Virus record (IMG/VR): IMGVR_UViG_3300037493_001409
Coordinates: 1-36,618 of that record
From: a virus
DNA: 36,618 nt
Reading direction: 5' to 3' (one strand)
This document shows, piece by piece, positions 17,877 through 29,571 of this stretch; the first letter of the stretch is position 1; each line of letters opens with the position of its first letter. The position numbers and the translations under genes are program-made. Under the pieces are notes generated by a model. It saw nothing but the letters and a program-made list of their open reading frames with translations. It had not been told where the DNA came from and searched no databases.

Positions 17877-19895
17877 TTATTTTTTCAGAATCATTCCTGA
17901 TGCTGTGCCGGGTTCCACCACAATCCAGCCGTTCTCTTGCGGTTCAATCAAACCCGCATCAATTAATTTCTTGATGTAAGTTCCCGGCGCTTCCATCGAG
18001 CCAATCAAATTACGTCTAGAACCTACGGTGCTGGACTTGGGATTAGCTTGAATGCCATTCTTTACGGCGTAGTCGGTCAGCACTGACCTTGTGAGGTACG
18101 GCAAACCGCCACGGTCTTCTGCGCCTGATTCCCACCATGCACGTTCAAAATCAACAAACACTTGGCCTTCTTCTTTTTTCTTGACTTCGGGTTGTTGGCC
18201 TTTGACTACGACTGCACTGGTAACGGCTTCCCCGTCTTCATCAAGCCAACCGGGTATTGCTACGGATTCCAAGTCAACGTAAACCGTCTGCGCCATTTCA
18301 GCGTCTTTGCTCTTGCGCTGGACAATCTGCATGGACGCACCTGGCTTGCCGGGAATGATGCTTATCTCAATGTCCAAAGCGCCACGCCATGCTGACGAAC
18401 CCCGTGCGCGGTGTTGGGCTTCCTCTGACACGCCAGTGTGGTGAACCAGAATCACGGTGCAATCGAACTCTTGCATCAAGGCTGCACACGCATCAAGCAT
18501 GGTCTTAGCATCTTGTGCGCTGTTCTCGTCACCCGCCATGAATCGGTGCAGGGTGTCTACCGTAATGACGTTGGGTTTAATCTTGAGCGCCCGGACTGCT
18601 TCCACCACCTTGAGATAACCGGGTGCGGTATTCAGGTCTAACCCTGATTTGGACACCCACATATTCAGGCTGGTCACGCTGTTCTTATGCTTCCAGGCGG
18701 CAATCCGGCTTCGCAATCCGTGGTGGCCTTCGCCTGCCAAATAAACCATGTTTCCAGCTTTGACCTTGTGGCCTAACCAAGTTGGTTTGCCTGATGCAAT
18801 GTGCAGCATCCAATCCAAAGTTACGAATGTTTTACCGCCTCCACTCGGGCCATGCACCATCACTAAGGCTTGGTCTTGTATCCAATGCTTCACAAGCCAT
18901 GAAAGGGGTGCTGGCTGCTCTGAAAACCCATCGGCAGGGATTAGGTAGTCTGTTGCAATTGGTGGCTTTAAAAGCAAAGCCAAGTCATGCCCTGCTTGCA
19001 CGAAATCGTTTGCGTCACCAAGGACAGGCGGCATAGTCATACGAACCCCAAATTTTGCGCTGGCTTGTTCTGCGTAGCGTAGGCCCACGCCACTTGCGTC
19101 ATTGTCGGCAACAATGCAAATGTCCAAGGTTGGATTACTCGCCTTGAGAATGCCCGTGATAGGGACTAGGTTGCTGGCGCTGTAAGCCACGGCACAGGGT
19201 TGTCCTGTTACGGCTTGAATGGTGGCGGCGGTTGCAAAACCTTCAGCAATGTAAAGCGTATCGGCTTCGTCCAGACTGCCCAACATCCAGAACATGGAGC
19301 CAGTTGCACCGCCGGGGTGGTATTTCTTGTCACCGTCACCCGATATATATTGGATGCTGGCAAGTTCACCGTCTTCGTTGTACAAAGGAACCATCAAACG
19401 CCCGTCACCCGTCACCCGTGCGCCATGTGGACTGATTCCCTTCTTGGCTAAGTACGGGTGTTCGGGGCTGGCTGCTCCACCTTCTGACCAGATCAATTCC
19501 ACGGTTTGCGCTGCAACTTCGCGGGTCTTGGCTTGCTCTGCATCACGCTTGGTCTTGGCTTCGGCAAACCGTTTGGTCTGCGCCATTTCCTCGGCTACGG
19601 TAAGGCTGCGTCCAATCTCTGCCTTCCATGTGAGTTCAACACCAGAACGCCAGCAACCGAATCGTCCTGCGGGAATACCATCATTGAACGCCACGTACCA
19701 GCCAGGCTTATCGTGACCGCCTTCGCCTTTGGTTCCACTGTTGAATCGGTGCAGCTTACCGTCTAAGTAAATAATTTCTGGTGGCTTTAAACCAACGCCA
19801 AGCATGGCATCCTTTAGTTGGTCTTCAGGTGCAGAAACCTGCTTTGGAGGGGGTGGTGACCAAGGGCCACCGAAGATACTTGCAAGGTCTGACAT
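17877..19895 (-). CDS. Primase-helicase (Toprim + RepA-like ATPase)
   Basis: 672 residues. The N-terminal part (about 1-200) resembles the region before Toprim in phage primases, but has no CxxC zinc finger. Toprim motifs follow: IAEGFATAATI with Glu218, VADNDASG (D264, D266) and GDANDF (294-298). The second half is a RecA-fold helicase of the RepA/AAA_25 type: Walker A GPSGGGKT (349-356), Walker B VITVDT (443-448), VHHTG (484-488) and RGSSA (498-502). A winged-helix-like C-terminus ends the protein. It would unwind DNA and lay primers for the host polymerase. AAAGGATG precedes the ATG. It opens the minus-strand operon, divergent from the Sak4-like gene. Confidence 0.9.
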   Translation of the reverse strand: MSDLASIFGGPWSPPPPKQVSAPEDQLKDAMLGVGLKPPEIIYLDGKLHRFNSGTKGEGGHDKPGWYVAFNDGIPAGRFGCWRSGVELTWKAEIGRSLTVAEEMAQTKRFAEAKTKRDAEQAKTREVAAQTVELIWSEGGAASPEHPYLAKKGISPHGARVTGDGRLMVPLYNEDGELASIQYISGDGDKKYHPGGATGSMFWMLGSLDEADTLYIAEGFATAATIQAVTGQPCAVAYSASNLVPITGILKASNPTLDICIVADNDASGVGLRYAEQASAKFGVRMTMPPVLGDANDFVQAGHDLALLLKPPIATDYLIPADGFSEQPAPLSWLVKHWIQDQALVMVHGPSGGGKTFVTLDWMLHIASGKPTWLGHKVKAGNMVYLAGEGHHGLRSRIAAWKHKNSVTSLNMWVSKSGLDLNTAPGYLKVVEAVRALKIKPNVITVDTLHRFMAGDENSAQDAKTMLDACAALMQEFDCTVILVHHTGVSEEAQHRARGSSAWRGALDIEISIIPGKPGASMQIVQRKSKDAEMAQTVYVDLESVAIPGWLDEDGEAVTSAVVVKGQQPEVKKKEEGQVFVDFERAWWESGAEDRGGLPYLTRSVLTDYAVKNGIQANPKSSTVGSRRNLIGSMEAPGTYIKKLIDAGLIEPQENGWIVVEPGTASGMILKK

Positions 19896-26954: not shown

Positions 26955-27002
26955 TTGTTTTCTCCTGTTACGCCATGCGTGATTGCTTGGCATGGATAGA
27001 GT

Positions 27003-27040
27003 GTAACCGAATTTGTTACGCTGCAACTTAATTTGTTGCA
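27003..27040. promoter_or_regulatory. Two tandem operator-like dyads
   Basis: GTAAC-CGAATTT-GTTAC (27003-27019) and GCAAC-TTAATTT-GTTGC (27023-27039, extendable by one T/A pair to 27022-27040) share arm length, spacer length and the central AATTT, and start 20 bp apart, about two helical turns. This is what a dimeric repressor binding two sites on one face of the DNA would need. The repressor is unknown. Confidence 0.6.
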
Positions 27041-27064
27041 ATTATTTGTACTGATCGTTTATAC
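27013..27064. promoter_or_regulatory. Candidate divergent promoters sharing a palindromic -35
   Basis: TTGCAA (27036-27041) is its own reverse complement and can serve as -35 on both strands. On the minus strand TAACAA (27018-27013) follows at 17 bp and would drive the operon that starts at 26954. On the plus strand TTATAC (27059-27064) lies at 17 bp and could drive terS. The hexamers are imperfect, so this is tentative. Confidence 0.35.
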
Positions 27065-27076
27065 AGTGGTTTTATG

Positions 27077-27159
27077 AGTACATTGTTACACTATGTATGC
27101 ACTATGTACTATGTACAAAGTACATTGTTTACATACATAGTACATTGTGTACTATGTAC
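27077..27159. repeat. Cluster of ACTATGTAC and AGTACATTGT repeats
   Basis: ACTATGTA occurs at 27090, 27101, 27108 and 27151, and inverted at 27134-27141. AGTACATTGT occurs at 27077, 27119 and 27139. A 10-bp inverted repeat, TACATAGTAC / GTACTATGTA, spans 27134-27158. TGCACTATGTAC at 27098-27109 is the reverse complement of 12 bases of the word repeated within terS. The remaining part of the gene-free interval 26955-27270 has no convincing gene. Confidence 0.85.
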
Positions 27160-27195
27160 TTTTCTGACAAAAACAGGGCTACAAAGTACATACAC

Positions 27196-27221
27196 TACAT
27201 TATTCCCTAAGGAATAATGTA
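27196..27221. repeat. Perfect 11-bp-arm palindrome upstream of terS
   Basis: TACATTATTCC (27196-27206) and GGAATAATGTA (27211-27221) pair perfectly around CTAA. No T-run follows on either strand, so it is more likely a protein-binding site or cruciform element than a terminator. It ends 50 bases before the terS start. Confidence 0.8.
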
Positions 27222-27270
27222 TGTATGTATGCCTTGTGCGTCTTAAAATGTAGATTTTTGGGGGTGAAGT

Positions 27271-27843
27271 ATGGCTCGAATTGAAAACAGGGCGGAAATC
27301 TCGCTACAGATTTTGGATAGCATGGCGGGCGGTCAGAGCATGAGACAAAGCTGCTTGAAAGCAGGCATTGGAGCATCAACATGGTTGGACTGGTGTGCTG
27401 CTGACCGTGATTTAGACGAACGCTATGCACGCGCACGACTATCTTTGCTCGATGCGATGGTAGATCAGATCATCACCCTAGCTGATTCCCCGGTGGCTGT
27501 GCTCGATACTGGTGCTACTGATCCGGCCTTGGTGCGTCAGCGACAGTTGCAGATCGATGCTAGGCGCTGGATACTGTCAAAGCTCGCTCCGCGCATATAT
27601 GGCGATAAGCTCGATGTCAATGTCAGCGATACACGTATATCTATTAGCGGGGCTTTGGCGGCTGCGCAGGCCCGCCTAGTAGATGTGATTGACGTTACAC
27701 CCGTACATGCACTACACAATGTACATAGTGCACAGGAAGTGCATAGTGCATATGTACATAGTGCATCTGACAATGTACATAGTGCACCCGATGCACCACC
27801 TAAGCCCAGGCGCCTGCTACTTGATAGCTACATCGATGACTAA
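27271..27843 (+). CDS. terS: Terminase small subunit, Sf6 gp1-like
   Basis: 190 residues. The N-terminal part (RAEISLQILDSMAGGQSMRQSCLKAGIGASTWLDW) is a helix-turn-helix, followed by a central oligomerisation helix pair (RYARARLSLLDAMVDQIITLAD) and RQLQIDARRWILSKLAPRIYGDK, the conserved end of the Sf6-type small terminase domain. The C-terminal 45 residues are unusual: VHSA appears four times (151-172) followed by PPKPRRLLLDSY. The protein binds the packaging site and hands DNA to the large subunit. GGGGGTGA precedes the start. The VHSA codons contain the repeated word also found upstream of the gene. Confidence 0.9.
   Translation: MARIENRAEISLQILDSMAGGQSMRQSCLKAGIGASTWLDWCAADRDLDERYARARLSLLDAMVDQIITLADSPVAVLDTGATDPALVRQRQLQIDARRWILSKLAPRIYGDKLDVNVSDTRISISGALAAAQARLVDVIDVTPVHALHNVHSAQEVHSAYVHSASDNVHSAPDAPPKPRRLLLDSYIDD
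27720..27786 (+). repeat. TGTACATAGTGCA repeats inside terS
   Basis: Exact 13-mers at 27720-27732, 27753-27765 and 27774-27786, with a one-base variant (GTGCATAGTGCA) at 27739-27750. Each contributes VHSA to the protein. Spacing between exact copies is 33 and 21 bases. A 12-base inverted match sits at 27098-27109 upstream of the gene. Confidence 0.9.
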
Positions 27844-27999
27844 GGCCGCGACGAGGCCAGGGAGGAGGGCCGAGGCCAAAGGGCCAGCGGCTACGGAGCC
27901 TTCACAAACATTTTTATTTTTATTTTTAATTTATTAACATATATGCTTAAGTTACTTATTCTGTTTGGCCTTTTTTATTTTTTATTTTTTTATTAATAT

Positions 28000-29571
28000 A
28001 TGCAAACCACAATATATAAACCAGAAGACGAACAAGAATTAATGGCTGTCTTATGGAGTAATAAATTAAAAGATAATCCACTGGCGTTTGTTAAGTATGT
28101 ATTTCCGTGGGGTGTAAAAGGTACTCCTTTGGAACATTTCTCTGGCCCTAGAAAATGGCAGAGAGAGATATTGCAAGATATTACTGACCATATTGCAATT
28201 AATAATGAAGCCGCGAAAGCATTAGCGCCTAATGGTGCATCCCTATCCAACTCAGAGATTGCTTACAAGGTATTGCAAGAAGCAGTATCTAGTGGTCGTG
28301 GAATTGGAAAGTCGGCATTAGTGTCATGGCTGACTATATGGATGGTGTCAACTCGTATTGGCTCAACGACAATAATCTCAGCCAACTCAGAGAATCAATT
28401 ACGGTCAATTACTTGGGCTGAGATTACAAAGTGGCTGGCTATGTCATTGAACTCACATTGGTTTGAGGTGAGTGCGACAAGGGTGGCGCCTGCCAAGTGG
28501 TTGACTGATTTGGTTGAGAGTGATTTAAAGAAGGGTACAAGGTATTGGGGTGTGGAGGGCAGGCTGTGGTCGGCTGAGAATCCTGATGCTTATGCTGGTG
28601 TACACAACTTTGACGGTGTGCTGGTGATCTTTGATGAGGCATCGGGTATTGATGATTCGATTTGGTCGGTCACTGGTGGCTTCTTTACGGAGAACACGCC
28701 GAATCGGTTTTGGATGGCGTTCTCGAATCCACGGCGCAATACGGGGTATTTCTATGAGGCGTTTAATTCCAAGCGGGAGTTTTGGAAATCTCGGGTGGTG
28801 GACGCTCGGACGGTGGAGGGGACGGACAAGCAGGTGTATGAACGGATTATTAATGAGTATGGGCCGGACAGTGCGCAGGCTCATGTGGAGGTGTATGGGA
28901 TGTTTCCGAATGCGGGGGATGACCAGTTCATTTCTAGTTCGGTGGTGGATGATGCGATGAAGCGGCCTAAGTACAAGGATCAGTCTGCGCCGATTGTGAT
29001 TGGGGTTGACCCGGCGCGGTTTGGTGCGGATGCGACGGTGATTGCGGTGAGGCAAGGTCGGGATATTATTAAGATCATGCGGCATCGGGGGGACGATACG
29101 ATGACGGTGGTGGGCCATGTGATTGAAGCGATTGAGGAATTTAAGCCTACGCTGGTGGTGATTGATGAGGGGGGATTGGGCGCGGGGATTGTGGATAGGC
29201 TCAAGGAGCAACGCTATAAGATTAAGGGGGTCAACTTTGGCAATAAGGCCAAGAACCCTATAATGTATGGGAATATGAGGGCGCAAATGTGGGGCGATAT
29301 GCGGGACTGGCTCAAGTCAGCAAGCATTCCAAGTGATCGGTTCTTGAAAACTGATTTAATTTCGCCTATGATGAAGCCAGATTCTAGGGGGACTATCTTT
29401 CTGGAGTCCAAGAAGGACATGAAGTCACGGGGTTTGGCTTCACCTGACGCAGCGGATGCGATATGCGTGACGTTTGCGTTCCCGGTGGCGCATAGGGAGT
29501 ACACTGAAAAGGCTCGTACACTACGGGTTAGTGATCGTGGTGCGGTTTCAACTGGCTGGATGGGAAGTTAA
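28000..29571 (+). CDS. terL: Terminase large subunit
   Basis: 523 residues. ATPase: Walker A-like GRGIGKS (99-105) and Walker B VLVIFDE (207-213) with SGIDDSIWSVTGG after it. Nuclease: GVDPARFGADATVI (D337), LVVIDEGGLGAGI (D389) and SPDAADAI (482-489) supply the RNase H-like acidic residues. It pumps DNA through the portal and cuts the concatemer. No ribosome-binding site is seen before the ATG; an ATG at 28042 (M15) is an alternative. Base use changes inside the gene: 28021-28080 has about 32% G+C but 28861-28920 about 62%, with G far above C, suggesting a recombinant gene. Confidence 0.93.
   Translation: MQTTIYKPEDEQELMAVLWSNKLKDNPLAFVKYVFPWGVKGTPLEHFSGPRKWQREILQDITDHIAINNEAAKALAPNGASLSNSEIAYKVLQEAVSSGRGIGKSALVSWLTIWMVSTRIGSTTIISANSENQLRSITWAEITKWLAMSLNSHWFEVSATRVAPAKWLTDLVESDLKKGTRYWGVEGRLWSAENPDAYAGVHNFDGVLVIFDEASGIDDSIWSVTGGFFTENTPNRFWMAFSNPRRNTGYFYEAFNSKREFWKSRVVDARTVEGTDKQVYERIINEYGPDSAQAHVEVYGMFPNAGDDQFISSSVVDDAMKRPKYKDQSAPIVIGVDPARFGADATVIAVRQGRDIIKIMRHRGDDTMTVVGHVIEAIEEFKPTLVVIDEGGLGAGIVDRLKEQRYKIKGVNFGNKAKNPIMYGNMRAQMWGDMRDWLKSASIPSDRFLKTDLISPMMKPDSRGTIFLESKKDMKSRGLASPDAADAICVTFAFPVAHREYTEKARTLRVSDRGAVSTGWMGS

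Follow-up and report, generated by a model that had tools for sequence, protein, structure and literature searches.

The helicase of the phage P4 alpha protein belongs to superfamily 3, and P4 has two iteron regions, ori1 and crr. Alpha joins a Toprim primase and a helicase to a C-terminal winged helix that binds the origin repeats (PMC4234260). The oriV of RSF1010 contains iterons and stem-loops (ssi) that are used by the primase, and the functions are split over three proteins (PMC4234260). The initiators of related phages can have their own iterons inside coding sequence, as described for lambda O, P22 18 and phage L 18 (PMC8022706), and in the PLE satellites of Vibrio cholerae an initiator domain and the origin covary while the remainder of the protein is conserved (PMC8263062). 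Packaging sites have been described in and around terS: in P22-like phages the pac site lies inside the gene (PMC9611059, PMC8022706), and in SPP1 the pac repeats lie around its start (PMC4737164).

The window, by which we mean the whole stretch of DNA that was analyzed, is a viral record of 36,618 bases with an exact 125-base terminal repeat, which indicates a circular assembly some 36.5 kb long. The first-pass annotation of this DNA had described a word repeated in and upstream of terS and had proposed it as a packaging site recognized by TerS, with terS self-repression or a replication origin as alternatives. Our analysis upholds its claims that selection acts on the DNA and that the two clusters belong together, does not support TerS recognition or the packaging site, and favors the origin. 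We consider it likely that the words are replication-origin iterons read by the C-terminal domain of a primase-helicase. As in SPP1, the repeats lie around terS, and as in P22 a site lies inside it; unlike the pac sites of both, the word is independent of the TerS type and the upstream dyads are common to phages with other terminases. The likeness to P4 consists of one protein with Toprim, helicase and a proposed C-terminal winged helix and of two separate clusters of one word, but the helicase is RecA-like (AAA_25, similar to RSF1010 RepA) rather than of superfamily 3, and the clusters are 0.5 kb apart around terS. A RepA-like helicase and putative iterons with stem-loops are shared with RSF1010, which keeps RepA, RepB' and RepC as three separate proteins; in the window the primase is fused to the helicase, with the C-terminal domain as the apparent reader. 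Lambdoid iterons lie inside the initiator gene itself; here the proposed ones lie in terS and its leader, the dyads being some 8 kb away from the primase-helicase gene. Compared with the two origin types and the RepA_N fold of PLE, we find about ten word classes and a primase-helicase.

Repeat clusters around terS

The features of the window used below are:

17877-19895, minus strand: primase-helicase (Toprim and AAA_25), proposed replication initiator, from domain matches and similarity to RSF1010 RepA
17916-18104, minus strand: hypervariable winged-helix-like C-terminal domain of the primase-helicase, amino acids 598-660, proposed word reader
27077-27162, no strand: site I, proposed iteron array of direct and inverted word copies (ACTATGTA / TGCACTATGTAC / GTACATTGT), from the sequence and the dyad in relatives
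27180-27232, no strand: site II, second dyad with a palindrome/hairpin at its center, from the sequence and the hairpins in relatives
27271-27843, plus strand: terS, small terminase (Sf6_terminase, PF20901)
27703-27787, no strand: cluster III, proposed iterons in the terS tail, with TGTACATAGTGCA three times exactly and once as a variant and with partial copies as well; own-word copies also in the tails of relatives
27860-27921, plus strand: CE, conserved non-coding element, AGGGCC..aGGGCC.aCgg..aCGgA......AACAaTTTTT, from a 67-nt profile
28000-29571, plus strand: terL, large terminase, followed by a P22-like portal gene

The repeats are as the first-pass annotation gave them. Exact copies of TGTACATAGTGCA lie at 27720, 27753 and 27774 in the 3' end of terS, and a copy with two mismatches, AGTGCATAGTGCA, at 27738, 67 bases in all; in the translation of terS, VHSA occurs four times. 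Upstream of the gene, TGCACTATGTAC lies at 27098-27109 and ACTATGTA at 27090, 27101, 27108 and 27151, with an inverted copy at 27134. The window contains 8 copies of ACTATGTA (0.73 expected), a count reached in 0 of 100 shuffles. The upstream cluster is larger than had been recognized: it comprises site I and a second dyad, site II, which contains the 9-bp palindrome CATTATTCC-CTAA-GGAATAATG at 27198-27219. The repeats are gathered at one place of the genome, as an iteron-type origin requires. The 8-mers of the upstream region cover 88% of the 85-base terS tail, and elsewhere in the genome the best coverage is 28% and the mean 2%. When the tail was recoded synonymously 5000 times, the best recoding reached 48% coverage versus 86% observed; because random recoding falls this far short, the tail DNA is not accounted for by its peptide alone. 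The GC content is 32% in the region of sites I and II (27000-27199) and 15% at 27900-27999. GC skew has no turning point at the terS region and is uninformative for the origin, and Rfam and tRNA searches of the window returned nothing.

Searches with TerL and TerS gave about 160 loci, from which we compared the 39 genomes of the window's type, in which terS stands immediately before CE. All but a few of the 39 share one plan: site I is followed by a G-rich/CAAAAC spacer, then by site II with its palindrome, and then by terS, in whose last codons the word of that genome recurs a few times. The upstream dyad is found at the same place with a different sequence in about 38 relatives. The word differs by genome (TTGAATCG/CGATGCA, TTGCACAATG, TGCACTGTG, TTGCACTTTTTGCA, CTGCACCA, TGTACATAGTGCA and others) and drifts completely between genomes. 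Relatives that keep the VHSA peptide while the DNA changes freely, which the first-pass annotation had named as a refutation of its reading, were not seen: the relatives keep neither the peptide nor the word, only the match between the clusters. The 8-mers of a genome's own upstream region cover 0.19 of its terS tail versus 0.093 for those of other classes; the observed mean was reached in 0 of 5000 permutations of the tails among genomes, and a control stretch of terS gave 0.028 (own) and 0.025 (other). Against synonymous recoding, mean tail coverage was 0.213 versus 0.063; expectation was exceeded in 34 of 38 genomes, and 20 stood at the 5% level or better. Since the tails match their own upstream words beyond both chance and synonymous recoding, the DNA is under selection. 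Counting against the origin reading, the match is poor in four loci (L160, L179, L185 and L040), and two others (L170 and L169) have the same tail with different words. The hairpins at site II have a mean stem of 7.7 bp in the relatives versus 4.9 bp in shuffles, with 24 different arm sequences. The two contig ends of G052 each carry an origin-like dyad region; the two are not identical, and on a circular genome the distance between them would be about 1.3 kb.

The C-terminal domain of the primase-helicase

The primase-helicase has a Toprim primase domain (Toprim_3, PF13362), as in proteins of the P4 alpha type, and an AAA_25 helicase part that resembles RSF1010 RepA (1g8y, E 3.7e-5). The protein is 75-86% identical between phages of the window's type, and outside its C-terminal domain 75-93% identical between most word classes, but amino acids 598-660 fall into distinct types that follow the word classes. 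The sample consisted of 17 genomes that have both parts; they are related to each other, and their word classes were assigned by eye. In it, the partial Mantel correlation of upstream similarity with the C-terminal domain, controlling for the remainder of the protein, was 0.31-0.42, values reached by 0-2 of 3000 permutations; the reverse partial correlation was 0.18-0.19. In this modest sample the repeats therefore covary with the proposed DNA-binding domain of the putative initiator, as those of an iteron origin would. After domain types B, C, D and F had been seen, we forecast that type t2 would go with class A or class E, for neither of which a domain had been seen by then; all four t2 contigs (G054, G050, G051 and G052) carry class A words, within the forecast. 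Among genomes inspected after the types had been noted, two with a type D domain have D words (G053, L316) and two with a type B domain have B words (L308, L325). In G040 most of the primase is like that of other classes while the C-terminal domain and the word are of class B, which marks this genome, by its sequence, as a natural recombinant. Types t1 and t4 come with their own words, one of which, ATGCAGAAAACGCA, is present in both the dyad and the terS tail of G047. A counter-case is G048, whose domain shares 74-77% identity with type B although its word differs. Taken together, the word class appears to track the C-terminal domain, on evidence that we regard as good but not final, and because of this association the origin explains the clusters better than packaging does.

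The predicted structure of the C-terminal domain has the order strand-helix-helix-helix-strand-strand, which in a weak model (mean pLDDT 64) suggests a winged helix. The best Foldseek matches of the domain are mostly winged helices and are not significant, and a sequence search of the PDB with it found no similarity. A search for a close relative of the domain type that the window carries returned none. We infer binding, origin activity and the order of events as follows: the winged-helix-like domain would bind the dyads at sites I and II, the RSF1010-RepA-like helicase domain would then load and unwind the DNA, and the Toprim domain would prime, perhaps at the hairpin of site II. The cluster in the terS tail may serve as a second origin element like P4 crr or may link the initiator to the adjacent packaging site.

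If the origin reading is right, these genomes form a large natural data set in which about ten word classes are matched to domain types, and predicted replication origins become available for uncultured freshwater phages of a common group. Within an otherwise conserved primase-helicase, a winged-helix domain would then change together with its DNA site, giving a recognition code that is testable by swapping. Rapid turnover of origin specificity is expected under origin-directed attack or parasitism (compare PMC8263062); we saw no such opponent here. The origin reading would also correct the easy misreading of the terS repeats as a packaging site and point to a separate, strongly conserved element as the candidate for that site.

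Alternative explanations and the conserved element

That the clusters are the TerS-binding repeats of a pac site seems improbable to us. Their position in and around terS fits such a site, and the tail cluster lies consistently beside CE, which goes with this terminase; but a pac site should change with the DNA-binding domain (DBD) of TerS, and the DBD and the word are decoupled in both directions (Spearman 0.06). In the pair L160/L039 the DBDs are 94% identical and the words differ (upstream similarity 0.12), and in L220/L039 the DBDs are only 34% identical and the upstream DNA has a similarity of 0.96. We therefore rejected TerS as the reader of the word. As the TerS of Bacillus phage SF6 binds DNA without sequence specificity (PMC4737164), missing covariation is less than a full argument against TerS contact. 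A pac site should likewise go with the terminase genes, but three unrelated pairs of terminases stand beside the upstream dyads, and in G048 (68 kb), G050, G051 and G052 they adjoin unrelated small and large terminases and CE is absent. The upstream dyads thus go with the replication module. Across L159-L236, about eight types of TerS N-terminal DNA-binding domain occur on a conserved C-terminal half, swapped independently of the flanks. Among the left-flank genes within 4 kb, none clearly tracks the word beyond the terL baseline.

We also think it unlikely that the words are operators for the leftward and terS promoters, bound by a transcription regulator that might be the primase-helicase itself in an autoregulatory role. 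The region is divergent (the leftward gene ends at 27041 and terS runs rightward) and dyads would fit dimers, but there is no promoter excess, the tail cluster sits where the coding sequence of terS ends, and no protein other than a primase-helicase was seen to follow the word. Functionless repeats, spread by slippage and gene conversion and tolerated by the terS tail, would agree with a TerS tail that varies in length and sequence among the relatives and with the other kinds of repeats that some relatives have upstream of CE. They would not account for a dyad architecture and hairpin that persist though the sequence changes, for tails that follow the upstream word beyond synonymous expectation, or for the association of the word with a protein domain; this explanation is already disfavored, and we give it very little credence.

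The conserved element CE adjoins terS and terL and is followed by a T-rich stretch of 15% GC. The 67-nt profile has one match, on the same strand, in 73 of 73 loci with the region present, once per genome. CE goes with terL; relatives that have other terminases lack it. It also occurs in a second group of relatives, whose TerS and replication module are different and which carry other words upstream, in 5-13 copies. Because it occurs once per genome, on one strand and in all 73 loci, the second group included, CE is the best candidate for the packaging (pac) site of the window. Alternatively, it could be a late promoter or, with the adjoining 15% GC stretch, an unwinding element. Contig ends were considered as packaging ends and set aside: five contigs (L045, L067, L077, L114 and L068) start inside CE at differing positions, which assembly breaks would also explain. 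In five loci (L057, L072, L073, L079 and L066) a series of 16-bp palindromes, GTTAGTGNNCACTAAC, lies directly upstream of CE, and in L063 a TerS of the window's type and one of the second group stand on the two sides of CE.

Nothing comparable to the tail cluster was found in relatives with other terminases; the tail cluster therefore belongs to the arrangement of terS and CE seen here. One doubtful but conceivable role, on the origin reading, is a link between replication and packaging, in which a bound initiator would hold off the terminase at CE or position it there. If this link is true, the type of origin specificity is written twice, at the origin and at the packaging site.

A second group of relatives

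Ten loci of the second group (L092, L095, L103-L107, L086, L069 and L036) encode a different TerS of 146 amino acids and a DUF5906 helicase. Upstream of terL they have up to 13 copies of lineage-specific words of 9-10 bp (ATTGTCCACA, AATGACCCAA, TGCCAACAC, ATAGCCCACA and others), which often flank an AT-rich stretch. These words probably make up a further origin system, in which the word drifts as well. Among the proteins of this group, with its DUF5906 module, none showed an obviously hypervariable reader domain. A reading of the second-group TTGTCCACA words as sites of the host DnaA kind was rejected, a DnaA C-terminal domain being encoded in MW202483 only. This more distant relative (L116, MW202483.1) encodes a protein with a DnaA C-terminal domain and has many copies of TGTTTACAT upstream of terL.
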